Source of the DNA: Actinokineospora bangkokensis
Lineage (GTDB): Bacteria > Actinomycetota > Actinomycetes > Mycobacteriales > Pseudonocardiaceae
DNA length: 64,000 bases
Direction: 5' to 3'
Assembly: GCF_001940455.1 (NCBI RefSeq)
Contig: NZ_MKQR01000007.1
Span: forward strand, 333,378-397,377
Part shown: positions 3,239 through 14,110 of the stretch, in pieces
Position numbering within the stretch: the first letter of the stretch is position 1
How the letters are laid out: each line of letters begins with the position of its first letter
Translations under genes and position numbers: made by a program
Notes under the pieces: generated by a model
What the model saw: the letters and a program-made list of their open reading frames with translations, nothing else
Databases searched by the model: none
Told to the model about the DNA's origin: nothing

Positions 3239-4030
3239 CTACTGTGGATCCGCCTTGACCGGCGCCGAGCCCTCCACGAAGGAGGGGAGGACGTGCGCTT
3301 GGCCCAGCGTCCACAGGTTGTTCGCGAGGAAGTACACCAGAACCCCGATCGGCACGGGGAACAGCAGCCCGGATACCAGCACCCCGACAGGCGCCAGGTA
3401 CCCCAGCCACCTGCCGATCGTCGCCGCCTGCCCGGTGGCGGGGTTGCGCCGCTGCGACACCCGGATCGACAGGAACGTCGCCAACCCGGCCAGCAGCATC
3501 AACGGCAACCCCACCCCGAGCACGTGCGCGCGATCGGTGGCGAACGCGGCCAGTTCGTGCGCGGGCTGGCTCACCCAGTTCCCCAACCGCGCCCCGAAGA
3601 GGTCCGCCCGCAGGAACGACTCCACCCCGGCCCGGTCGAACACGTGGTTGCCCGCGGCCCCGGGCGTGAAGTCGCGCAAGACCGCGTAGAGGCTCAGGAA
3701 CACCGGGATCTGCACCAGCGCGGGCACGATCGCCCCGAACGGGCTGGTCCCGTGCTCGGCGTAGAGCTCCTGCACCTCCCGCGCCAACCGGGCCCGATCA
3801 CCCCGGTGCTCCTCCTGGACCCGCTTCAGCGCGGGCGCAAGCGATTGCGCGACCCGCGCCGCCCGCAACTGCCGCACCGCGGACCGCACCAGCAGCAACC
3901 GCACGGTGAACACGAGGAACGCGATGGCCAACACCCACGCGGCCCCGCTGTCGGACCCGAAAAACCCCCCGAACACCCAGTGCCAGAACCAGAGCACGGC
4001 GGAAACGGGGTAGAGGAAGACGTCGAACAA
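3239..4030 (-). CDS. yidC: YidC/Oxa1-family membrane protein insertase
   Basis: Membrane insertase of the YidC/Oxa1/Alb3 family, 263 residues, inserting proteins into the cytoplasmic membrane with or without Sec. The protein has an N-terminal hydrophobic segment, a helix carrying the conserved groove arginine (LVFTVRLLLVRS), a basic cytoplasmic loop with coiled character (LKRVQEEHRGDRARL), then the GTSPFGAIVPALVQIPVFLSLY signature segment and further membrane helices with FPVPIGVLVYFLANNLWT near the C-terminus. It lies away from rpmH/rnpA and is followed upstream by DUF6412, so it is probably an accessory YidC paralogue and not the housekeeping copy. That last point is inference. Confidence 0.88.
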   Translation of the reverse strand: MFDVFLYPVSAVLWFWHWVFGGFFGSDSGAAWVLAIAFLVFTVRLLLVRSAVRQLRAARVAQSLAPALKRVQEEHRGDRARLAREVQELYAEHGTSPFGAIVPALVQIPVFLSLYAVLRDFTPGAAGNHVFDRAGVESFLRADLFGARLGNWVSQPAHELAAFATDRAHVLGVGLPLMLLAGLATFLSIRVSQRRNPATGQAATIGRWLGYLAPVGVLVSGLLFPVPIGVLVYFLANNLWTLGQAHVLPSFVEGSAPVKADPQ

Positions 4031-4099
4031 AGCAAGCTCCTGATGGGAGAGGTGGCGGACGAGGACGTCAACCGCCCACGCCGGAACCCTCCCGGCGCC

Positions 4100-4402
4100 C
4101 TACAGGACGGCGACCCCCGCGCCGGACGGAGCCCTCGGCCGCGTCCGCCCCCGCCCATCCGGATCCCGGAACCGCACCCCACCAACACCCCGGGCCCGCT
4201 CCCGCAGGCTGACCGCCCGAACCCCCGCAGGCGCGACCCCCACCACCACGACGCACAACAACGCCACGGCGATGACCACAGCCACACCAGCCGTCACCGT
4301 CGAGGCGACCAGCCCACCGCCGGAACCTCCGGGCAGGGCCAGGAAGAGGGCAGGCAGGAACAGCGCGAGCACGAACCGCAAGCGCGTCCCCGGGAACCCC
4401 AT
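4100..4402 (-). CDS. DUF6412-like small membrane protein
   Basis: A 100-residue protein with two predicted hydrophobic segments (around residues 7-25 and 32-55) and a basic C-terminal tail carrying RFRDPDGRGRTRPRAP. The RDPD.xGRxRPRAP tail is typical of DUF6412 proteins, which commonly sit beside accessory yidC genes in actinobacteria. It is transcribed in the same direction as yidC, 69 bases upstream, so the two probably form a unit. ATG at 4402 is preferred over an upstream start at 4444 because it puts the first hydrophobic segment close to the N-terminus. The molecular role is unknown. Confidence 0.6.
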   Translation of the reverse strand: MGFPGTRLRFVLALFLPALFLALPGGSGGGLVASTVTAGVAVVIAVALLCVVVVGVAPAGVRAVSLRERARGVGGVRFRDPDGRGRTRPRAPSGAGVAVL

Positions 4403-4419
4403 GCCCGCGATGCTACCCC

Positions 4420-5385
4420 TCACCTCACCACCGGGTCCCCCCACGCCAACTCCGGCGGTCGCCCGGCGAACGAGCCGGGCAGGGCAGGCGGGCGCTCCAT
4501 CTCCAGGCGGAGCACCTGACCCTGCACCACCACGTCGACGCGCTGCGGTTGCCCGATGCCCGCCGTGGCCTCCCAGCGCGGCTTGCCGTCCACCAGCACG
4601 CGGAACCGACCGGTCTGGAACCGCTCCACGGCGTCGTCCAGCACGCCCGCCACCGCGGTGAACCGGTGCCGCCCGGCGGGTAGTTCGACCTCGACGAACC
4701 CCTGCGCGGGCACCCCCGGGCTCAGCACGACGCTGTCAGCGTGCTCGACGCCGCCCAGCCGGGCGCCGCCCGCCCGCACCTGGGGGCTGCTGCGCAGCCA
4801 CCGCTCCTGCTCGCACACCCGCGCGGGCCCGGCCGCCGCGTCCCGCAGCACCCCGTCCGGCCCCACCTTGCCCAGCCACTGACCGCGCTTCTTCCGCTGG
4901 TGGCGCGCCACCCCGGTGATGGCCCGCACGATGTCGCCCAACCCCGCGGCCGAGACGTCCTGGACCAGGAAGTGGGTCATGGAGTGGGGGTTGAGGATCC
5001 GGGGGATGTCGTCGACGGTCCAGCCGGGCAGCACCACGGGGAGGATCTTCCGCGTGCCCGCCACCGCGTCCTCGGTCATGATGTCCCGGAGGATGCCGCC
5101 CTCGAACTGGGCGCCGCGCCCCTCGCCGGCGGCGGCTTCGCCGTCGATGCGCCGCCGGTAGTCGCGCGAGGCCACCGCGATGATCCGGTCCGCCGACCGC
5201 ATCTGGTGGGCGAACAAGCCCCAATCGATGCGGATGGCGTCCTCGTACTGGTCGAGCAGCACCTCCAGCCCCAGCTCCTCCTCCAGGCAGTCGGCGAACC
5301 TCCCCACCGCGTCCCGGTGGTGCTCGCTGTCGTGCGAATAGCTCATGAACACCCGCGGTGCCGCGTCGAGCACGGGTTCGGCCAT
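4420..5385 (-). CDS. SEFIR-domain protein with C-terminal NPCBM-like domain
   Basis: A 321-residue protein. Residues about 11-160 form a SEFIR domain of the TIR-like superfamily: strand RVFMSYSHDS with H18, DAVGRFADCLEEELGLEV, LDQYED, WGLFAHQMRSADRIIAVASRDY, and later ILPVVLPGW. After a linker, residues about 195-305 resemble an NPCBM/NEW2 carbohydrate-binding-type fold: GGVEHADSVVL, LPAGRHRFTAVAGVLDDAV, FRVLVDGKPRW and a final VDVVVQGQVLRLEM. No signal peptide is present, so it is cytoplasmic. ATG at 5385 follows GGAGGGGG at a suitable distance. It is divergent from an ABM gene and only about 600 bases from a TIR operon on the other strand. A role in signalling or defence is inferred, not shown. 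Confidence 0.75.
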   Translation of the reverse strand: MAEPVLDAAPRVFMSYSHDSEHHRDAVGRFADCLEEELGLEVLLDQYEDAIRIDWGLFAHQMRSADRIIAVASRDYRRRIDGEAAAGEGRGAQFEGGILRDIMTEDAVAGTRKILPVVLPGWTVDDIPRILNPHSMTHFLVQDVSAAGLGDIVRAITGVARHQRKKRGQWLGKVGPDGVLRDAAAGPARVCEQERWLRSSPQVRAGGARLGGVEHADSVVLSPGVPAQGFVEVELPAGRHRFTAVAGVLDDAVERFQTGRFRVLVDGKPRWEATAGIGQPQRVDVVVQGQVLRLEMERPPALPGSFAGRPPELAWGDPVVR

Positions 5386-5543
5386 CGTTCCCCCTCCACC
5401 TCCGGTCCGGGGCATTGTGACCCCCGAAGTGTGCCTGTGAACACCGCTCCGAACAGGCTGTCGCCCATTTGTCGCCCGCGCCGGAACAGGCGTGCCGGGC
5501 GGCCCGGTGGCATGCTGGGGGCACGCCCGGCGGAAGGAAAGAA

Positions 5544-5867
5544 ATGATCTTCATTACGGCCAAGTTCCAGGTCAAGCCCGAGGACGCCGACCAGTGGCCG
5601 GAGATCTCCCGCGAGTTCACCGAGGCCACCAGGGCCGAACCGGGGTGCCTGTGGTTCGACTGGTCCCGCTCCCTGGACGACCCCACCGAGTACGTCCTCG
5701 TCGAGGCCTTCCGCGACGGCGAGGCGGGCGGCGCGCACGTCAACGCCCCGCACTTCAAGAAGGCCCAGGAGACCCTCCCCCCGCACCTCGTCTCGACCCC
5801 GAAGATCGTCAACTTCGAGACCCCCGGCACGGAGTGGTCCCTGCTCGGCGAACTCGCCGTCGACTGA
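5544..5867 (+). CDS. Putative quinol monooxygenase (ABM domain)
   Basis: A 107-residue antibiotic-biosynthesis-monooxygenase (ABM, YgiN-like) protein of the dimeric ferredoxin-like fold. Diagnostic stretches are IFITAKFQVKPE at the start, EPGCLWFDWSRS in the middle and YVLVEAFRD followed by HVNAPHFKKA. Such proteins oxidise quinols or small aromatics without a bound metal or flavin. The ATG at 5544 follows GGAAGGA. It is monocistronic and ends at a strong hairpin (5928-5960). Substrate unknown. Confidence 0.8.
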   Translation: MIFITAKFQVKPEDADQWPEISREFTEATRAEPGCLWFDWSRSLDDPTEYVLVEAFRDGEAGGAHVNAPHFKKAQETLPPHLVSTPKIVNFETPGTEWSLLGELAVD

Positions 5868-5927
5868 TCACAACACGGTCCCGGCGCGCTTTTGTCTAGT
5901 TTTTGCCGGCCTCTCACCCCTGCCCAA

Positions 5928-5960
5928 GACCGGCCCGAGCGACCTACGCTCGGGCCGGTC
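5928..5960 (+). terminator. Strong hairpin between ABM gene and TIR operon
   Basis: Perfect 14-bp inverted repeat (GACCGGCCCGAGCG and its complement) with a 5-base loop. It is placed to terminate the ABM transcript, but it ends only 29 bases before the TIR start codon. Either the TIR promoter is squeezed between hairpin and gene, or the hairpin sits in the TIR leader and acts as an attenuator. An AT-rich patch at about 5890-5905 could hold a promoter upstream of the hairpin. Confidence 0.7.
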
Positions 5961-5989
5961 CTGTTGCGGCACAAGGGGAGTGGCTGGGC

Positions 5990-6568
5990 GTGTACCAGTA
6001 CGACGCGTTCATCAGCTATCAGCGCGGCAGCCGCGCGGGCGAGTGGGTCAAGACCCACTTCGAGCCTCGGCTGCGCGCCCTCCTCGACGAGAACTCCCTG
6101 CACGAGGTCCGGGTGTTCACGGTCGATTCCGGCAGGTCGGGCGGCAGGTGGCCGGATGACCTGCGGCACGCGCTCCTGCACGCCAAGGTCCTGATCCCGG
6201 TCTGCACCCCGAAGTACTTCACCAACGAGTGGTGCAAAGCCGAGTGGGCCTCGATGGAGGGCCGGGAACAGCTCCTCGGGCTGGGCGTCAACGACCCCCG
6301 GGGTCTGATTCACCCGGTGGTGTTCGGTGATGGCGACCTCTACCCGGACTGGGCCAGCCGCAGGCACATGACCAGCTTCAAGGACTACGCGCACCCGGAA
6401 CCGCAGTTCGCCAACAGCCAGGGGTACTTCGACTTCGTCAAGCTCATGTTGACGTTCGTCGAGGACCTGGTGATCGCGCTCGACGACGTGCCCCCGTGGG
6501 AGGACGGCTGGCCCATCCACACCCCCGACGTCGAGCCGCTCGGGCCGTCCCCCCTGCCGAGGTTGTGA
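5990..6568 (+). CDS. TIR-domain protein, first gene of a putative defence operon
   Basis: A 192-residue soluble protein that is essentially one TIR domain. It opens with YQYDAFISYQRG (strand A, box 1), continues with VRVFTVDSGRSGG, the helix of LRHALLHAKVLIPVCTPKYF, and the catalytic motif NEWCKAEW, where W81, C82 and E85 match the SxxWCxxE motif of TIR NAD-cleaving enzymes. The C-terminal third (from about residue 140) is less typical and ends in a proline-rich tail. GTG at 5990 follows AAGGGGAG and removes upstream unrelated codons. Only four bases separate it from the ATPase gene, so the two are surely co-transcribed. NADase or cyclic-ADP-ribose activity is inferred from the retained glutamate. 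Confidence 0.82.
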   Translation: MYQYDAFISYQRGSRAGEWVKTHFEPRLRALLDENSLHEVRVFTVDSGRSGGRWPDDLRHALLHAKVLIPVCTPKYFTNEWCKAEWASMEGREQLLGLGVNDPRGLIHPVVFGDGDLYPDWASRRHMTSFKDYAHPEPQFANSQGYFDFVKLMLTFVEDLVIALDDVPPWEDGWPIHTPDVEPLGPSPLPRL

Positions 6569-6572
6569 CGCC

Positions 6573-8183
6573 GTGCCCGGTTCGGTGATCACCTTCTACT
6601 CCTTCAAGGGCGGCGTCGGGCGCAGCTTCACCCTGGCCAACGTCGCGCTGCTGCTGGCCCGGTGGGGCTACTCGGTGCTCTGCGTCGACTGGGACCTGGA
6701 GGCGCCCGGCCTCAACTACTACTTCCAGGACATGCTCAGCAGCCCGCCGGAATCCGGGGTCATCGATCTCGTCGACGACTTCACCACCGACCCGGACGGC
6801 CCCCTCGTCGACCGCACCATCAGCCTCATCGGGGTGGGCGCGCTCGACCTGCTGGCCGCGGGCCGGGCCGACGCCCGCTACTCCGAGAGGGTGCAGGCGG
6901 CGGACTGGGACGGGCTCTACAAGCGCAGGTTCGGGGACTTCCTCGAACGCCACCGCGACGCCTGGCTGGCCAGGTACGACTACGTGCTGATCGACAGCCG
7001 CACCGGTGTGTCGGACACCGGCGGCATCTGCACCGCCCAACTCCCCGACCGGCTGGTGCTCGTCACGGTGCCCAACATGCAGAGCATCCGGGGCGTCGTG
7101 GACATCGCGACCCGCGCGGCGGCCGCCAGGGACGGGCTCCCGTACGACCGGAGCAGGTTGAGCGCGCTGCCGGTGCTCTCGCGGCTCGACACCAACGAAC
7201 TCGAACGGGCGGAGAGCTGGCACCGCCGCTTCCTCGAAGAAGCGCTCCCGCTCTACCGGAACTGGCTCGACGTCGGGGTGTCGGCGGAAGTGGTGTCGCG
7301 GCTCACCACCGTGCCCTACAGCGCCTACTGGAGCCTGGGGGAACAACTCCCCGCCGCGGCCGAGACCGAGCCGACCCCGGACCAGATCACCTACCCGCTG
7401 GAGACGATCGCCGCCCTGGTGGCGCAGGGCTTCGACCGCACAGACCTGCTGGGCGAGAACCGGGACGCCTACGTGACCCGCGTGCGGGAGCGGAACCGGG
7501 AGTTCTCGCACGAGGTCCTGGTCAGCGCCAACCGCCCGACGATGGAGTTGGCGGAGACCCTGGCCAAGGCGCTCGCGGAGCGCGGGGTGCGCGCGGAGCG
7601 GTCGCTGTCCGGTGACCGGTCTCTGATCCCCAGGGCGGAGGCGGAGGCCCGGCACCTGTGCCTGGTCGTCGACGGGAAGCTGACGCGCTGGCAGGAGGCC
7701 GAGGTCGAGCTGTTCCTGCACCGGACCATCGGCCAGGACCGCAGGGTCATCCCGATCCTCACCGAGACGGCGAACCCGGAGGAGTTGCCGGGGTTCATCG
7801 CCAACCTGCGCTACGTGCGGATGAGCCAGTCCCGGGGCGCCGACGAGGTCGCCAAGGCGGTGGTCGACCAGGTCCTCAAGCGGGTTCCGCTCGTCGACCA
7901 GGGCGACGCGGATTTCCCGGGCTTGCTCGCGAAGGTCTCGGCAGCCCGGTTGCCCGAAGCGCTCTGGGCGCTGATCGATGAACTGGTGGGTGAACTGCTC
8001 AGTGTTGTGGGCAGCGGAGACGCCGTCCTGGCCGCCGAGATCGCCGACGAGATCGCGGCGGTGATCACCCCTCGGCCCCGGCGGTCGACTGTGCCCAGGA
8101 CACCCGCGCCCAGGGACACCGTCGGCGCGATCGAGTGGGCGATCCGCGTCCTCAACGCGCGTGTGATCAACAAGCGCGAGTAG
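6573..8183 (+). CDS. KGGVGR-type ParA/MinD-like ATPase fused to a TIR-like domain
   Basis: A 536-residue protein. The N-terminal domain is a deviant-Walker P-loop ATPase: ITFYSFKGGVGRSF at residues 6-19 keeps the signature lysine K12 but has arginine R17 where ParA/MinD proteins have the P-loop lysine. VLCVDWDLEAPG (Walker A prime) and YDYVLIDSRTG (Walker B) follow. Residues about 311-416 look like a second TIR-like domain: FSHEVLVSANRP, ALAERGVRAERS, ARHLCLVVDG, then TRWQEAEVEL with W373 and E377 spaced like the TIR catalytic W and E, then RRVIPILTE and LPGFIANLRYVRM. The rest is helical. GTG at 6573 immediately follows the TIR gene. Probably a nucleotide-controlled sensor or switch for the system; function not established. 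Confidence 0.8.
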   Translation: MPGSVITFYSFKGGVGRSFTLANVALLLARWGYSVLCVDWDLEAPGLNYYFQDMLSSPPESGVIDLVDDFTTDPDGPLVDRTISLIGVGALDLLAAGRADARYSERVQAADWDGLYKRRFGDFLERHRDAWLARYDYVLIDSRTGVSDTGGICTAQLPDRLVLVTVPNMQSIRGVVDIATRAAAARDGLPYDRSRLSALPVLSRLDTNELERAESWHRRFLEEALPLYRNWLDVGVSAEVVSRLTTVPYSAYWSLGEQLPAAAETEPTPDQITYPLETIAALVAQGFDRTDLLGENRDAYVTRVRERNREFSHEVLVSANRPTMELAETLAKALAERGVRAERSLSGDRSLIPRAEAEARHLCLVVDGKLTRWQEAEVELFLHRTIGQDRRVIPILTETANPEELPGFIANLRYVRMSQSRGADEVAKAVVDQVLKRVPLVDQGDADFPGLLAKVSAARLPEALWALIDELVGELLSVVGSGDAVLAAEIADEIAAVITPRPRRSTVPRTPAPRDTVGAIEWAIRVLNARVINKRE

Positions 8184-8270
8184 CCGCCCCACGCCGTTCC
8201 ACCCACGAACCTGCTCCACCACCCCAGCGGGACACCCGGTCCCGCGTCTTCGGTGCGGAAGGAAAGTCGG

Positions 8271-8903
8271 ATGGCAGACCGTTTGTCGCACAAGCAGACC
8301 GCGGCCATGTTCGCGCTCATGGTGACGGCCCGGGAGGTGAGCAACCCCGACCTGACCGAGATCGCCGGGTTCCCCCTCAACGGGGCCGAGCGCAGGCAGC
8401 TCAACGACCTCGGGCTGGTCGTGAGCAGCAAGCAGGGGCGCTGCTACGTCCACGAGCTGACCGACGACGGCTGGGCCTGGTGCTCGGCCGAGCTGGCGGA
8501 GGGCACCCCGCCACCGCCGCAGCCCCGCAGCCTGCTCGTCGGCTCGTTCTACCTGGTGCTGGCCTCGCTGCACCGCTACCTGGCGCGGCAGGGGCACCCG
8601 CTGTCGGAGGTCTTCCGGCCGGTGGTCGACCTGACCGCGGAGCAGATCGAGGACCGCATCCGGGAGGCCTACACCAAGCTGGCCCGCAGGCCCCAGGACT
8701 GGGTGCGCCTCGCGGACCTGCGCCCCTTGCTCGACGGCGCCCCGAGCGCGGAGGTCGATGCTGTGCTGCTGGATCTGAGCAAGCTCGGCGCCGTGCACTT
8801 GGCGCCGCTGTCCGACCGCAAGCGCCTGACCCCGGCTGATCACGCGGCCGCGATCCGGGTCGGCGGTGCGGATAGCCACCTCGTCGTCGTCGAGGCGTCA
8901 TGA
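8271..8903 (+). CDS. Winged-helix-like protein of the TIR/HerA operon
   Basis: A 210-residue soluble protein I cannot assign to a named family. Residues about 5-75 look like a winged helix: LSHKQTAAMFALMV, then EIAGFPLNGAERRQLNDLGLV, then a beta-wing (SSKQGRCYVHELTDDGWAWC). This resembles MarR-like wHTH domains. The middle region (FYLVLASLHRYLARQ) is helical and the C-terminal part (LADLRPLLDGAPSAEVDAVLLDLSKLG) could be a second wHTH. ATG at 8271 follows GGAAGGA. The stop overlaps the start of the HerA-like gene (ATGA). It may be an adaptor between the ATPase motor and the TIR effectors, or a DNA-binding regulator. Confidence 0.7.
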   Translation: MADRLSHKQTAAMFALMVTAREVSNPDLTEIAGFPLNGAERRQLNDLGLVVSSKQGRCYVHELTDDGWAWCSAELAEGTPPPPQPRSLLVGSFYLVLASLHRYLARQGHPLSEVFRPVVDLTAEQIEDRIREAYTKLARRPQDWVRLADLRPLLDGAPSAEVDAVLLDLSKLGAVHLAPLSDRKRLTPADHAAAIRVGGADSHLVVVEAS

Positions 8904-11900
8904 GCGAGCAGTTGCGAGCGCTGTCCTCGCTCTACCTCGACTCCGCGGACACCCCCGACCACGTCTGGGTCGACTCCCAATACCACGTCGAGGGCCTGCA
9001 CGCTGAGGTCATCGATAGCATCGACCTGGGCATCCGTGCGGCGCAGATGAGTTCGAACGGAAGCCCTATCGGCTTGGTGCTGCAAGGGCTCAAAGGTGTG
9101 GGCAAGACCCACCTGCTCGGCACCGTGCGAAGGCGGGTGCACGCGGCTGAGGGCTACTTCTTCCTGAACGACCTCACCACGGGGGAGGCGTTCTGGGACA
9201 ACACGGTGGACGCCCTGCGCACCGGGTTCAACCGCCCTGACGCCTCCGGTGAGACGCAGCTGCGCAGCTTCTTGCGCCGCATCTGCGAGCAGGCGGACGT
9301 TCCCCCGGAGGTCACCAAGGTGATCCTGGGTGGCAAGCGGCTGACCCGGGAGCAGGTCGACGAGTTCGTCGTGGGTGTGCGTCGATTGGACCGCCAAGTG
9401 GGCGTGGAGTGCGCTGACATGGCCAGGTCCCTGGTGCTTTACGGGTCGGACAACCAAGAGCAGAACGACGTCGGGGAGGGATTCCTCGCCGGGTACACCG
9501 AGACCCGCCGGGGTGAGCGGGAGGTGTGGGGGATCCGGGCGAGGGTCCCGCGCGCGGAGTTCCGCGTCCGGGATGTGACCCGCCTGCTCGCACTCACCGG
9601 GCCGCTGGTGGTGGGGGTCGACCAGCTCGACACCCTGCTGAACCAAGCGGAGAAGCAGGCCGACGGCGATGGCAACAGCCAGATCGACCTGATGGTCGGT
9701 CAGGTCGCGGACGGACTGATGCGGTTGCGGGAGGTCACCCGCCGCACCCTGACGGTCCTGAGCTGCCTGCCGGACACGTGGCTGAAGATCGAGAACAAGG
9801 CCGCTGACACGGTGACGGACCGGTTCCGCCCATCGCGCATCCTGGGCCGCATCCGCGACGCCGAGGTGGGGAGGTCGCTCATCGCGCGCAGGCTCGAAGG
9901 CTCCTACGCGGCGGTCGGGTTCACCCCACCGCACTCGACGTGGCCGATCGCGCCGTCTGCCTTCGACAGCCACGGGTGGAACCAGTTCACCCCGCGGGTG
10001 CTGCTGCGGAAGCTGCACATGCACGTCGAGATGTGCCTGCGGGCGGGGCAGGTGTGGGAGTTGGTCTCGTTCGACGATGAGTCGCTGCCGCCGAACAAGG
10101 TCCCAGAGGTCGAGCCCGCGCCCGTCCAGGTGCAGAGCCAGAAGCAGGCCGCCCAGGCCCAGGCGCAGGTGGTGGACCGGCACGCGGAGCTGGACGAGCT
10201 GTTCGAGCGGCTGCGGGCCTCGGCGGACGTGCAGGGGATGCTCGACGCCCAGAACGAGGACGTCCTGATGCCGGAGCTGCTGTCCACTGTGCTGCGCGCG
10301 TGGATCACCGAGGTCGGTGACGACAACATGGAGTGGGAGTGCCGCACCTGGTCCAACCGCAACGAGGTGCACGCCTGGCTCACGCGCACGCTGGACGAGG
10401 AGAAGGACCTGGAGGAGCACTGGGCCTTCCGGTTCATCGCGGTGCCGGACCCCCGGGCGGCGCTGAGCCGGGTGCGCAAGGCGATCTCCGCGACGAAGCT
10501 GAACCAGGGGGCGGACAACCGGCACCTGGTGCTGATCCGCAACCTGAAGTGGTCGACGGGGCTGAAGACCCGGGAGGAGCTGGCGTCGTTCGACCAGGCG
10601 GGGGGCGATCGGCTGGCCTTCGCGGAGGACGACCTGCGCACGTACTGGGCGCTCAAGGAGCTGATCGCGGCGAACCGACCCGACCTGCACGACTGGCTGG
10701 TGGCGCGCAGGCCCGCCAGCCGCTCGGCGCTGCTGCGCGCGGTGCTGCCCGAGCCGCCGGCGGCGGGGGAGACGCACCCGCCGCCGGGGGACGGGGTGGT
10801 GGTGCTGGGCCGGGAGGTCGAGTCCGGGGCGGCGGTGGGCGTGGAGCTGGAGGCGCTGCGCAAGCACGCCGTGGTGTTCGCCGGGTCCGGGTCGGGCAAG
10901 ACGGTGCTGCTGCGCAGGATCATCGAGGAGTGCGCGCTGCTGGGCGTGTCGTCCATCGTGCTCGACCCGAACAACGACCTCGCGCGGCTCGGTGACCCGT
11001 GGCCGCAGCCGCCGACCGGGTGGGCGCCCGGTGACGCCGAGGCGGCGCGGCGGTACATCGAGGGCACCGAGGTGGTGGTGTGGACGCCCGCGCGCGCCAA
11101 CGGGCGGCCGCTGGCGTTCCAGCCGTTGCCGGACTTCGCCGGGGTGCTCGACGACCATGACGAGTTCGCCGCGGCCGTGGAGGTCGCGGTGGCCGCGCTG
11201 GCGCCGCAGGTGCGGTTGACCGGCAGCGGGCCGCGCAACCACATCAAGCTCGCCGTGCTCAAACAGGTCGTCGAGCACTTCGCCAGGGCGGGCTCGCGCA
11301 GCCTGCCGGGGCTGATCGCGCTGCTGGAGGAGCTGCCGGAGGACGTCAGCACGCTGCGCGACGCGGGCAAGATCGCCGCGGAGCTGGCCGAGGCGCTCAA
11401 GGCGGCCATGGTCAACGACCCGCTGTTCGCGGGGACGGGGACGCCGGTGGACCCGGGTGAGCTGCTCACCCCGAGCGTGGGGAAGCGCGCGCGGGTGTCG
11501 GTCATCAGCTTCGTCGGCCTCCAGTCGGACGCGCAGCGCCAGAGCTTCGTCAACCAGTTGCAGATGGAGCTGTTCTCCTGGTTCAAGCGCAACCCCGCCG
11601 GTGATCGGCCGCTCGGGGGTCTGTTCGTCATGGACGAAGCGCAGACCCTGGCGGCCGGGGGGACGATGACGGCGAGCACGCGGAGCACGATCGTGCTGGC
11701 GTCGCAGGCGCGCAAGTACGGGTTGGGGTTGTTGTTCGCCACGCAGGCGCCGAAGGGGTTGCACAACCAGATCACGGGGAACGCGATGACGCAGTTCTTC
11801 GGGCGGTTGAACAGCCCGGCGCAGATCGACGCGGCGAACGAGATGGCCAGGGCGAAGGGGAGCCAGGTGGCCGACATCTCCCGGTTGGAGCGTGCTCAGT

Positions 11901-12019
11901 TCTACGTGTCGGGGGAGGCGTTCGGGTTCCGGCAGGTGGCGACGCCGTTGTGCTTGAGCCACCACCCGGCGAGCCCGCTGCGGTTGGAGGAGGTGCTGGA
12001 ACGGGCTCGGCGGGGGTAG
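8900..12019 (+). CDS. Dual P-loop ATPase with HerA/FtsK-like C-terminal motor
   Basis: A 1039-residue protein with two nucleotide-binding sites. The N-terminal half has Walker A GLKGVGKT (residues 63-70, K69) in an AAA/ORC-like context, with GPLVVGVDQLDTLL as a likely Walker B and TVLSCLPDTW as a sensor-like strand. A Gln/Ala-rich linker (about 405-430) separates it from a middle helical region. The C-terminal half has a second Walker A GSGSGKT (662-668, K667), LDPNNDLARLGDPW, and Walker B LFVMDEAQ (D912, E913), then LASQARKYGLGLLFATQAP, as in HerA, VirB4 and TraG-type hexameric DNA motors. The gene starts within the preceding stop. The first third uses more A/T-ending codons than its neighbours, a hint of transfer. 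A DNA-sensing or translocating core of a defence system is the likeliest role. Confidence 0.8.
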   Translation: MSEQLRALSSLYLDSADTPDHVWVDSQYHVEGLHAEVIDSIDLGIRAAQMSSNGSPIGLVLQGLKGVGKTHLLGTVRRRVHAAEGYFFLNDLTTGEAFWDNTVDALRTGFNRPDASGETQLRSFLRRICEQADVPPEVTKVILGGKRLTREQVDEFVVGVRRLDRQVGVECADMARSLVLYGSDNQEQNDVGEGFLAGYTETRRGEREVWGIRARVPRAEFRVRDVTRLLALTGPLVVGVDQLDTLLNQAEKQADGDGNSQIDLMVGQVADGLMRLREVTRRTLTVLSCLPDTWLKIENKAADTVTDRFRPSRILGRIRDAEVGRSLIARRLEGSYAAVGFTPPHSTWPIAPSAFDSHGWNQFTPRVLLRKLHMHVEMCLRAGQVWELVSFDDESLPPNKVPEVEPAPVQVQSQKQAAQAQAQVVDRHAELDELFERLRASADVQGMLDAQNEDVLMPELLSTVLRAWITEVGDDNMEWECRTWSNRNEVHAWLTRTLDEEKDLEEHWAFRFIAVPDPRAALSRVRKAISATKLNQGADNRHLVLIRNLKWSTGLKTREELASFDQAGGDRLAFAEDDLRTYWALKELIAANRPDLHDWLVARRPASRSALLRAVLPEPPAAGETHPPPGDGVVVLGREVESGAAVGVELEALRKHAVVFAGSGSGKTVLLRRIIEECALLGVSSIVLDPNNDLARLGDPWPQPPTGWAPGDAEAARRYIEGTEVVVWTPARANGRPLAFQPLPDFAGVLDDHDEFAAAVEVAVAALAPQVRLTGSGPRNHIKLAVLKQVVEHFARAGSRSLPGLIALLEELPEDVSTLRDAGKIAAELAEALKAAMVNDPLFAGTGTPVDPGELLTPSVGKRARVSVISFVGLQSDAQRQSFVNQLQMELFSWFKRNPAGDRPLGGLFVMDEAQTLAAGGTMTASTRSTIVLASQARKYGLGLLFATQAPKGLHNQITGNAMTQFFGRLNSPAQIDAANEMARAKGSQVADISRLERAQFYVSGEAFGFRQVATPLCLSHHPASPLRLEEVLERARRG

Positions 12020-12024
12020 GCGGG

Positions 12025-12057
12025 TGGGCACCGGGCCCGGGGGTGGTCCGGTGCCCA
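12025..12057 (+). terminator. Hairpin after the TIR/HerA operon
   Basis: Perfect 10-bp inverted repeat TGGGCACCGG...CCGGTGCCCA with a 13-base loop, starting 6 bases after the stop codon of the HerA-like gene. With the hairpin at 5928-5960 it delimits the four-gene operon. Confidence 0.65.
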
Positions 12058-12161
12058 GACCGCGTGTGGCTCGACTTCGGGAACCGGGTGGGAGGAGGGG
12101 CCGTCGGACGGGGTGAATGGCATCCTGTTCGGCAACCGGTTGCCGGGGTGAGGAGTTCGTG

Positions 12162-12659
12162 GTGTCCGCTGAGTTGGATCGGCTCGCAGCCGAGTTCGGG
12201 AAGTTCCAGGCCAGGATCCGGGAGGCCGAGGCCCGGTTCGACGGCGTCGCGGCCGTGCAGGGGGAGTTGACCGCGCTGGAGGTGGTGGCGACCTCCCCGG
12301 ACCGGGCGGTGCGGGTGGTGGCCGGGGCCGGGGGCGCGGTCAAGGACATCCAGCTCGGGGCCGACGCGATGCGCAGGCCCGCGCAGGCGCTGGCGCAGAC
12401 CATCATGGCGACCCTGCGCGAGGCGGTGGCCGAGGCCGCGCGGCGGCAGGCCGGGATCGTCGACGGCGCCTTCGGGGGCGGGTTGGGCACCACCGGGCTC
12501 GTCGAGCGGGCCCAGCAGGAGGCCGCCGAGCAGCAGGCCGCGGGAACCGGCGGGCCCGCTGCGGCGTCCCAGCGCCGAGAGCGGCCGGCGCGGCGCACCG
12601 CGCCGGACGACGACTTCGACGACTACAGCGACCAGTCGATCTACCAGGGGCCCCGATGA
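12162..12659 (+). CDS. YbaB/EbfC-family protein of a type VII secretion-linked cluster
   Basis: A 165-residue YbaB/EbfC-like protein. The N-terminal helix (LAAEFGKFQARIREAEARF), the strand-forming TSPDRAVRVVAGAGGAVKDIQLG and the following helix with ALAQTIMATLREAVAEAARR match the family core. The tail is low-complexity, rich in Q, A, R and D, and ends DDYSDQSIYQGPR. GTG at 12162 follows AGGAG at six bases. The stop overlaps the next start (ATGA). In Pseudonocardiaceae, YbaB paralogues commonly precede WXG100-like type VII secretion substrates, and that is the arrangement here. DNA binding is assumed from the family, not visible. Confidence 0.75.
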   Translation: MSAELDRLAAEFGKFQARIREAEARFDGVAAVQGELTALEVVATSPDRAVRVVAGAGGAVKDIQLGADAMRRPAQALAQTIMATLREAVAEAARRQAGIVDGAFGGGLGTTGLVERAQQEAAEQQAAGTGGPAAASQRRERPARRTAPDDDFDDYSDQSIYQGPR

Positions 12660-12988
12660 CCACACCGGACCACATCGACGTCGACATCTCGGCGTTGCAG
12701 TCGTACTCGGGCCAGCTCGGGTACTACCAGTCCGAAGCGGACGGCTTCGGGCGGCTCATCGACGTCGCCGACGTCAGCGGCGAGGCCTGGGGCGTGATGG
12801 GCGCGTTCGCCAAGGGCCAGTACACCGAGAAGCTGACCGAGCTGCGGTCGCTGCTGGAGGAGATGAAGTCCGGCGTGGAGGCGCTGTCGACCAAGATCTC
12901 CGACACCGCCGCGACCTACCAGGGCACCGAGGACGACGCGGTGATGCGCTTCGGCGCGCACGAGGCCGTCATCGACGGTCCGCGATAA
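12656..12988 (+). CDS. Type VII secretion target-like protein (EspC/DUF2580-type)
   Basis: A 110-residue all-helical protein starting inside the YbaB stop codon. It has the size and layout of small ESX targets: an N-terminal VDISALQSYSGQL helix, a W-containing turn (SGEAWGVMGAFAKGQY), and a long second helix ending with SDTAATYQGTEDDAVMRF. The YQGTEDD stretch resembles the C-terminal YxxxD/E secretion signal. No ESX ATPase or channel genes lie in the window, so any secretion would use machinery encoded elsewhere. EspC/DUF2580 is my best family guess. Confidence 0.65.
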   Translation: MTTPDHIDVDISALQSYSGQLGYYQSEADGFGRLIDVADVSGEAWGVMGAFAKGQYTEKLTELRSLLEEMKSGVEALSTKISDTAATYQGTEDDAVMRFGAHEAVIDGPR

Positions 12989-12997
12989 GGGGGAGAC

Positions 12998-14110
12998 GTG
13001 ACCGAGCCCAAGCAGAGCATCTCCGGACAGCTGGACGTCTCCGCCTACGACGAGAGCTTCGGCGCCAACCTCGACCGCGCCGCCGAGGCGACCCCGGTCG
13101 TGGGCAACGTCTACTCCACCGGCAAGTCCATCGCCGAGCACGCCCAGCAGTTCGGCGAGGCCGACGGGCTGGCGGAGCTGGCGGCGGCGTCGAAGGGGCT
13201 GGCCTCCGACGGCGCGGCGTTCGTCGCCGGGGCCGCCGCGGACGTCACCACCTTCGCCATGGACCCGATCGGCTGGCTGGTCAGCAACGGGCTGAACATG
13301 CTGCTGGAGCTGGTGCAGCCGCTGCAGGACGCGCTGCACCAGGTCAGCGGCGACGGCCCGGCCATCGGCCACGCCTCGGGCAACTTCACCACCATCGCCC
13401 AGGGCTTCCTCGCCCTCGCCGACGACTTCGAGGCGACCGGGGACAAGGCGCTCAAGGACTGGCGCGACGAGGCGGGCGACGCCGCGCGCGAGGCGCTGGG
13501 CGAGTTCTCCACCGGCATCCGCGGCGTCGGGTCCAGCGCGGGCTCGGTGGCCGAGGTGCTGCAGATGTGGTCGATGGTCATGGTGGTCATCGAGGAGGTG
13601 ATCAAGGCGATCATCTCCGAGCTGGTGTCCTGGCTGATCACGCTGTGGCTGCCCGCGCTGGCCTCGTCGGTGATCACCCTCGGCGGCTCGGTGGCCGCGG
13701 CGATGACCGCCTCGATCGCCAAGGCCGCGACCGTGCTGGCCAAGGTCACCCGCTACCTGGGCAAGTTCGGCAAGCTGCTGGACGAGTTCATGCAGTTCCT
13801 GGTCAAGTACGCGGGCAAGCTGGAGAAGTTCGCCGAGCGCTTCCGCGTCGGCAAGGTCGTCGACTCCGGCGGCCGCCAGGTGTTCCAGCCCAGCAGGCGC
13901 GTGCTCACCACCGCGCTGGGCACCCACGCGGGCGTGACGCCGTTCCTCACCGGGGCGGGCATCAAGGCGGGCATCGGCGCGGGCAAGGCGCTCTACGAGG
14001 AGGCCGACCAGACCGCCCGCGAGGCGATCAGCGGGGACGCACCGGTGCGCAAGGGTGACATCGGCGGCGGTCAGAGCCCCGAGGAGACCCGCCGCAACCT
14101 CGACATCTAG
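12998..14110 (+). CDS. Large WXG100-like, type VII secretion-associated protein
   Basis: A 370-residue protein, GTG start after GGGGGAG, nine bases after the preceding gene. Its first 180 residues are helical with DPIGWLVSNGLNMLLELVQPLQDALHQVSGD followed by a long helix containing KDWRDEAGDAAREAL, resembling WXG-type four-helix units of polymorphic toxin carriers. Residues about 195-260 are strongly hydrophobic (two likely membrane segments, SMVMVVIEEVIKAIISELV and SSVITLGGSVAAAM). The C-terminus is basic then glycine-rich. It ends by sharing one base with the next gene. I do not recognise a toxin domain; a membrane-associated partner of the small target is a reasonable inference. Confidence 0.6.
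   Translation: MTEPKQSISGQLDVSAYDESFGANLDRAAEATPVVGNVYSTGKSIAEHAQQFGEADGLAELAAASKGLASDGAAFVAGAAADVTTFAMDPIGWLVSNGLNMLLELVQPLQDALHQVSGDGPAIGHASGNFTTIAQGFLALADDFEATGDKALKDWRDEAGDAAREALGEFSTGIRGVGSSAGSVAEVLQMWSMVMVVIEEVIKAIISELVSWLITLWLPALASSVITLGGSVAAAMTASIAKAATVLAKVTRYLGKFGKLLDEFMQFLVKYAGKLEKFAERFRVGKVVDSGGRQVFQPSRRVLTTALGTHAGVTPFLTGAGIKAGIGAGKALYEEADQTAREAISGDAPVRKGDIGGGQSPEETRRNLDI

Follow-up and report, generated by a model that had tools for sequence, protein, structure and literature searches.

We analysed a 64,000-nucleotide stretch of the Actinokineospora bangkokensis genome (contig NZ_MKQR01000007.1, positions 333,378 to 397,377; hereafter the window), which carries a four-gene operon encoding a TIR protein (gene 1), a KGGVGR-type ATPase with a second TIR-like domain (gene 2), a double winged-helix protein (gene 3) and a large AAA+/HerA protein (gene 4), with a divergent gene for a SEFIR protein upstream (Table 1). 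The genome comprises 7.45 Mb in 32 contigs. An earlier note on this DNA had proposed this composition, a layout suggestive of co-transcription and two enclosing hairpins, and all of these were recovered: in the list of open reading frames (ORFs) of the window the four genes share the + strand, as that note described, 4 bases separate gene 1 from gene 2, the gap given as about 90 bases before gene 3 measures 87, genes 3 and 4 overlap by ATGA, and the paired arms of both hairpins could be located. The note overlooked the divergent SEFIR gene, which is a recurrent partner in the clade of the window and belongs to the gene set there.

The best start of gene 3 is the ATG at 8271, which is preceded by GGAAGGAAAG and backed by the protein-database copy of this gene (210 aa, P0131). 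The GTG at 8253 given in the ORF list was not preferred to this ATG, which fits the gap of about 90 bases. As for gene 1, its initial Met-Tyr is also where 8 of 14 aligned homologues start, with starts as picked by our own gene caller. A terminator scan reported neither of the two flanking hairpins, and an Rfam search of positions 4000-13000 gave no match.

Table 1. Coordinates of the operon and of the features around it in the window.
Feature	Position	Strand	Remarks
SEFIR + NPCBM-like gene	4420..5385	-	Divergent; start at 5415 also possible, used for profile scans
ABM monooxygenase gene	5544..5867	+	Between SEFIR gene and gene 1
Hairpin between ABM gene and gene 1	5925..5963	+	Arms 5925-5941/5947-5963, 17 nt, 94% complementary
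Gene 1, TIR protein	5990..6568	+	192 aa; GTG start
Gene 2, KGGVGR ATPase + TIR-like domain	6573..8183	+	GTG start
Gene 3, double winged-helix protein	8271..8903	+	210 aa; forms the core with gene 4
Gene 4, AAA+/HerA protein	8900..12019	+	1039 aa; overlaps gene 3 by ATGA
Hairpin just 3' of gene 4	12025..12057	+	Arms 12025-12037/12045-12057, 13 nt, 92% complementary; possible transcript end
YbaB-like, then EspC/WXG100-like genes	12159..14110	+	Downstream of operon; the latter below cut-off

Domains and conserved motifs of the encoded proteins

Pfam scans covered nine genes of the window (4420-14107) and PADLOC scans five proteins. The protein of gene 4 consists of an N-terminal AAA+ domain (residues ~1-396), a middle alpha/beta domain (~430-625) and a C-terminal HerA/FtsK motor (~630-1030). 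It matched DUF87/HerA (PF01935, 35.4 bits, cut-off 23.2) and AAA_22 (31.5 bits, cut-off 27), and its residues 653-1005 matched the PADLOC profile mad8 (66.5 bits). In all 101 proteins compared, this number being the 105 gene-4 proteins of our survey less four of 850 aa or shorter, the HerA half retains its motifs, the Lys of Walker A and the DE of Walker B, in agreement with the HerA/FtsK-like motor announced in the earlier note. Its description of gene 4 as a dual motor was overstated, because the Walker B of the N-terminal AAA+ domain, where a Walker A is present, reads Asp-Gln in all 101. In a fold comparison that covered residues 1-396, the matches listed included ORC/TnsC/BrxC-like AAA+ proteins. 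The middle domain is conserved across aligned relatives; reading 23 aligned sequences by eye, we saw no conserved D-(E/Q)xK motif in it.

Gene 3 matched no Pfam or NCBIfam family, PADLOC and Pfam scans of 77 homologues gave scattered weak matches only, and the best match of a PDB sequence search had an E value of 0.09. Its fold is that of a winged helix-turn-helix (wHTH) protein with two winged helices, in agreement with the earlier assignment, and resembles MarR-like folds and the centromere-binding protein AspA.

Gene 1 matched TIR_2 (PF13676, 41.6 bits, cut-off 28), and FxsC_Nterm with 51.1 bits, below the NCBIfam cut-off of 130. The catalytic W-C-E previously read in it corresponds to W81, C82 and E85 and is conserved: of 49 called homologues, 48 retain Cys82 and Glu85, one has a gap there, and 46 retain Trp81. 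The gene 1 profile matched the solved plant TIRs of flax L6, RUN1, RPP1 and ROQ1 (E 2e-8 to 2.3e-6); AbTIR, a bacterial NAD+ hydrolase, was matched more weakly (E 0.0044). Since Toll-like receptors were matched as well (E 2.3e-5 to 0.008), a profile match alone is no proof of an enzyme. TIR and SEFIR domains are linked to NAD consumption, and gene 1 is a predicted NAD-consuming effector. The SEFIR protein scored 49.7 bits with PF08357 (cut-off 23), 78 bits with PADLOC bSEFIR, and 22.8 bits with NPCBM, just below the cut-off of 23.9.

Gene 2 had been taken for a ParA/MinD-like KGGVGR ATPase with a second TIR-like domain, and both profiles exceeded their cut-offs: AAA_KGGVGR (NF047398, KGGVGR-motif variant AAA ATPase) with 152.5 bits against 90, and TIR_2 with 31 bits against 28, the TIR-like domain spanning residues 315-424. 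A PADLOC match to PDC-M28B (81.4 bits) was also obtained. The KGGVGR P-loop, in which Arg stands for the usual Walker A Lys and the first signature Lys is retained, is present in 52 of 52 gene 2 proteins. Trp373 is kept in all 52 and Glu377 in 50, and from their identical spacing we infer that they are equivalent to W81 and E85 of gene 1. A study of actinobacterial conflict systems reports MinD/ParA-like domains in them for which the authors predict a lack of activity (PMC7159879).

The KGGVGR family was also searched for in the reverse direction, in 41 relatives, where 17 of 20 matches adjoin a gene-4 match. Of the three that do not (L136, L137 and L138), L138 (4725-13786) holds a 1302-aa KGGTGR protein, two TIR-matching genes and a radical SAM-like gene, with no genes 3 and 4, and we take it for an FxSxx-COOH-type locus. 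L137 has a similar protein of 1286 aa near a TIR-matching gene, and L136 a 438-aa protein with the top family score of the search (194.5 bits) and no TIR match nearby. The TIR + KGGVGR pair thus occurs also in a separate type of locus without the HerA core.

Related loci and their gene sets

The survey comprised 105 gene-4 loci, that is, the window and 104 neighbourhoods (L027-L050, L056-L135), which are related and not independent. Genes were called by our own codon-usage caller. At six loci it left out a gene (gene 3: L093, L121; gene 1: L038, L044, L068, L073), and a six-frame profile check recovered the missing ORF at each of these. Gene-4 matches at E <= 1e-20 were found in 61 of 200 genomes of the family (17 of 46 genera), 57 of 298 of the order and 6 of 396 of the phylum. 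A gene-3 search found that gene in 2 of 149 genomes of the phylum, and a scan of genome contigs returned one locus, at the same place as L031. Further strong or partial gene-4 matches lie outside the survey (G565, G680, G714, G722, G750, G757, G777, G783, G807 and a partial second one in G522).

Gene 3 stands directly upstream of gene 4 at 105 of 105 loci (103 by gene calls, 2 by the six-frame check), and the overlap is exactly 4 bases in 75 of the 103 called pairs. The TIR and KGGVGR genes are both present at 52 loci (gene 1 called in 48 and recovered by re-check in 4) from 11 genera of one family; in all 48 called pairs no more than 16 bases separate the two genes. Because the four-gene set recurs at 51 loci besides the window, its clustering by chance was ruled out, and the co-occurrence in other genomes on which the earlier note had staked its proposal is borne out. 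Within the genus of the window, 13 of 16 genomes have strong gene-4 matches and 11 have TIR/KGGVGR adjoining.

Genes 3 and 4 form a core that is joined to differing effector sets, TIR/KGGVGR being one of several. The SEFIR gene accompanies TIR/KGGVGR at 20 of the 52 loci and occurs with genes 3 and 4 but without TIR/KGGVGR at two (L039, L040). Of the 52, 28 have an opposite-strand TIR-like gene 3' of gene 4 (median 296 aa), whose one scanned representative scored 19.7 bits with TIR_2, under the cut-off of 28; these loci (L027, L041-L047 and most of L068-L089) occupy one conserved chromosomal site. Elsewhere, the core is adjoined by a DUF559 nuclease (13 of 105 loci; two representatives with 42.4 and 36.3 bits, cut-off 20.6), by the PADLOC candidates PDC-M02A (DUF4365) and/or PDC-M02B (11 loci; representatives DUF4365 45.2 bits, cut-off 24.3, PDC-M02A 207.5 and PDC-M02B 179.5), by a small protein together with a WD40 protein some 1350 aa long (6 loci), or by AIPR/AbiU (4 loci; representatives AIPR 138.8 bits, cut-off 25, and AbiU 384.2). 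For the WD40 representative, 25 of its 44 Pfam matches were listed, and these are WD40/beta-propeller families; by our reading this protein also has trypsin-like and STAND parts.

In the tree of the 101 gene-4 proteins, obtained by FastTree only and with 24 of 98 inner branches left open, a single starred group of 54 rows holds the TIR/KGGVGR loci together with the two SEFIR-only ones. Six broad effector labels require 5 changes on this tree, the minimum possible, with 14 unclassified rows uncounted; giving the unclassified loci a separate state and dividing the TIR loci into three raises the number to 16, the minimum then being 8. It seems that effector sets were exchanged a few times, deep in the tree, and more changes would be needed if the unclassified loci are real losses or carry other effectors. 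The SEFIR-only loci are nested within the TIR+SEFIR branch, a position that points to a joint loss of TIR and KGGVGR with SEFIR retained. Flanks were compared in pairs with less than 85% gene-4 identity, a comparison meaningful for the two TIR clades only, effector genes being still in the flanks of the other groups. Only 17 of 186 pairs of TIR+SEFIR loci, the clade of the window, have a flanking gene family in common, from which we conclude that this clade moves.

Three records of a plasmid collection hold gene 4, all as DUF559-gene 3-gene 4 (Methylobacterium aquaticum, Tsukamurella and Nonomuraea). General plasmid carriage was set aside, two of the three (one of 11.85 Mb, one bearing ribosomal protein genes) being probably chromosomal. 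The M. aquaticum locus (L142, 6246-11255) lies on a 1.57 Mb plasmid outside the actinobacteria, in another phylum. Phage carriage was likewise not retained, as the phage collections searched gave no gene-4 match; an IMG/VR scan yielded 49 pattern stretches, none of them confirmed as gene 4. In Tsukamurella tyrosinosolvens (L143, 5293-10261) the three genes stand between rplN-side and rpsQ-side ribosomal protein genes, and in L135 an L14-like gene, identified by reading of the sequence, adjoins gene 3; this site is a possible insertion hotspot.

Likeness to described systems

PADLOC and NCBIfam scans matched single parts and no whole system, and a literature search gave no description of this system among the matches listed, which were mostly from open-access journals; the earlier note had likewise known of no system with this exact composition. 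We would class the TIR/KGGVGR/SEFIR form among HerA-type defence systems, as a variant that we have not found described.

In Nezha (SIR2-HerA), the NADase site and HerA are both required for phage immunity (PMC11559045). The operon resembles it in pairing a NADase-type effector with a HerA/FtsK motor, and differs in its TIR/SEFIR effectors, in the fusion of the motor to an AAA+ domain and in the additional wHTH and KGGVGR proteins; membership was rejected since, although a HerA/FtsK motor is present, no SIR2 appears in the Pfam results for the nine genes. DUF4297-HerA is activated by assembly (PMC11291478), and shares with the operon a HerA ring coupled to an effector; it has a nuclease effector, two genes and a stand-alone HerA. 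The nearest described class is that of the 'HerA-FtsK capture' systems, where ORC/CDC6, HerA/FtsK, an inactive restriction endonuclease (REase), a wHTH protein and an active nuclease occur in varied arrangements (PMC10853773, section 22). AAA+, HerA/FtsK (PF01935) and wHTH (gene 3) are together in the window operon too, and the DUF559 and DUF4365 relatives, which have a nuclease gene, may belong to this class. Judged by the text description, the window operon stands apart from it in having TIR/KGGVGR-TIR and SEFIR in the place of the nuclease: Pfam showed no active REase gene in the operon, and the TIR named in that section is fused to ORC/CDC6, in neighbourhoods that lack HerA/FtsK.

Other systems share single elements with the operon. 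FxSxx-COOH loci have a similar pair of a TIR (FxsC-like) protein and a KGGVGR ATPase; the L138 locus differs in its longer ATPase and its lack of genes 3 and 4, and membership was rejected on the FxsC score, far below its cut-off, and the lack of FxsA/FxsB, peptide or radical SAM genes among the nine scanned. Thoeris was also rejected, the ThsB profile giving E values of 0.022 (gene 1) and 0.0048 (SEFIR), with no ThsA among the five proteins scanned with PADLOC and nine with Pfam. Unlike in bSEFIR, with which it shares the SEFIR domain, the SEFIR protein is here a divergent partner of a multi-gene set and has an NPCBM-like tail. In MADS, mad8 occurs together with methylation genes; the HerA half of gene 4 matches mad8, but no other mad protein was found among the five scanned and no methyltransferase among the nine genes scanned.

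Proposed function and its alternatives

We read the locus as an abortive-infection-type immune operon, whose core would sense foreign DNA and switch on NAD-consuming effectors, and assign this reading a probability of about 0.6. Of its parts, a role in defence is quite probable; given defence, NAD consumption is by analogy a very probable output; and genes 3 and 4 are rather likely to be the sensor-activator. Under the best reading, the system would work like Nezha while differing from it in composition. The defence role put forward in the earlier note is still inferred, and is better founded now because the core in relatives joins proteins that PADLOC files as defence or candidate families (PDC-M02A/B, AbiU, bSEFIR).

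Genes 3 and 4 would act together on DNA as a sensing and activating core, a proposal based on their overlap, their universal pairing in the sample, the wHTH fold and the HerA and AAA+ domains. The AAA+ part of gene 4 would bind ATP and hydrolyse it poorly, loading or clamping the complex on DNA, since an Asp-Gln Walker B points to a domain that stays ATP-bound, holding instead of turning over. The HerA ring would move on the clamped DNA and, when invading DNA is met, the core would promote assembly of the effectors, namely the TIR protein, the KGGVGR ATPase-TIR protein and, in the clade of the window, the SEFIR protein; we regard these as outputs because of conserved Glu residues and because nuclease and AbiU genes stand next to this core at other loci. 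They would consume NAD+ and halt the cell before the invader multiplies, as the biochemistry of TIR and SEFIR domains and the Nezha precedent suggest.

More tentatively, the surveyed loci could represent one general immune chassis, where an ATP-locked, ORC-like loader-HerA protein and a double-wHTH adaptor license exchangeable effector sets (TIR + KGGVGR-TIR, SEFIR, DUF559 or DUF4365 nucleases, AbiU, or a WD40/STAND-type protein), the KGGVGR protein being a ParA-like filament that gathers TIR domains. A single DNA-sensing event would then lead to NAD loss, DNA cleavage or proteolysis; we see this as possible rather than probable. If this is true, many unrelated effectors depend on a single DNA-motor core, the signal sensed by HerA-type defence motors becomes directly testable, with the same core and a nuclease or NADase read-out, and the TIR + KGGVGR pair, present also in a separate core-less locus type, gains a function. 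A specific hypothesis, that of an ATP-locked loader, comes from the AAA+ domain, which is conserved and whose Walker B is invariably Asp-Gln.

Several observations weigh against the immune reading. The AAA+ fold matches do not tell ORC-type proteins from other AAA+ proteins such as NSF, the model of the HerA half of gene 4 is of low confidence, and gene 2 may be a scaffold only, its KGGVGR lacking the usual Walker A Lys. No recognised effector is present at 17 of the 105 loci, and four neighbouring proteins, among them the DUF559 protein and the TIR-like one encoded 3' of gene 4, matched no defence family in PADLOC. Moreover, in the sister clade (28 loci, those with the downstream TIR-like gene) flanking families are shared in 365 of 365 pairs; this clade is at one fixed site and apparently vertical, which suits housekeeping as well as defence and speaks against a purely mobile-defence view. 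The same fixed site favours a function outside defence, in which the operon would regulate chromosome or plasmid movement, division or sporulation, the TIRs being protein-interaction domains. At 9 sister-group loci an SsgA-family gene (sporulation/division), identified from a representative of its gene family, precedes gene 4 at a distance of 4-5 genes, gene 3 resembles MarR-like folds and AspA, and the TIR profile matches Toll-like receptors, which are non-enzymatic. We nevertheless hold this unlikely, given that nucleases and AbiU/AIPR replace the TIRs beside the core elsewhere, that the TIR Glu is conserved in both gene 1 and gene 2, that the genes are patchily distributed in the genus and that the KGGVGR P-loop is altered in every gene 2 protein.

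The presence of two distinct TIR-type proteins per operon, and of a SEFIR protein that has an additional domain at its C-terminus, would also fit Thoeris-like signalling, with the TIR making an ADP-ribose-type messenger read by KGGVGR-TIR and/or SEFIR-NPCBM killers, and genes 3 and 4 as the trigger. Such a scheme is improbable: the Pfam results for the system genes contain no SLOG, Macro or SAVED domain, and at L039 and L040 SEFIR is present without TIR/KGGVGR, which argues against its need for a gene 1 messenger there. Finally, genes 3 and 4 might be a translocating DNA reader that attacks incoming DNA in a restriction-like manner, the TIR set having replaced an ancestral nuclease. The DUF559-gene 3-gene 4 form of all three plasmid-collection records, one of them from a different phylum, agrees with this, but with no recognised nuclease in the window operon (Pfam) and a middle domain of gene 4 in which, by our reading, D-(E/Q)xK is not conserved, we consider it very unlikely. 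Over these alternatives, we prefer the reading as an immune operon.

Some further genes lie around the operon and its relatives. In the window the ABM gene separates the SEFIR gene from gene 1. It was rejected as a member of the system and is treated as an insertion, because no such gene was called between SEFIR and TIR at the other 19 TIR+SEFIR loci, including L049, the nearest row to the window in the tree. Close relatives of it stand 3' of gene 4 in L122-L125, i.e. on the opposite side of the core, and L049 also has a YbaB-like relative after gene 4. Three more TIR_2 matches occur in the genome of the window (C9:766745, C9:44721 and C13:188454; L139-L141), which has a single gene-4 match, so that these are without such a core beside them. 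In L034 (12913-17121), gene 4 is directly followed by a second SEFIR protein and then by a caspase + DEAD-type helicase protein with PADLOC matches to PDC-M23B, SngC, HamB and caspase.

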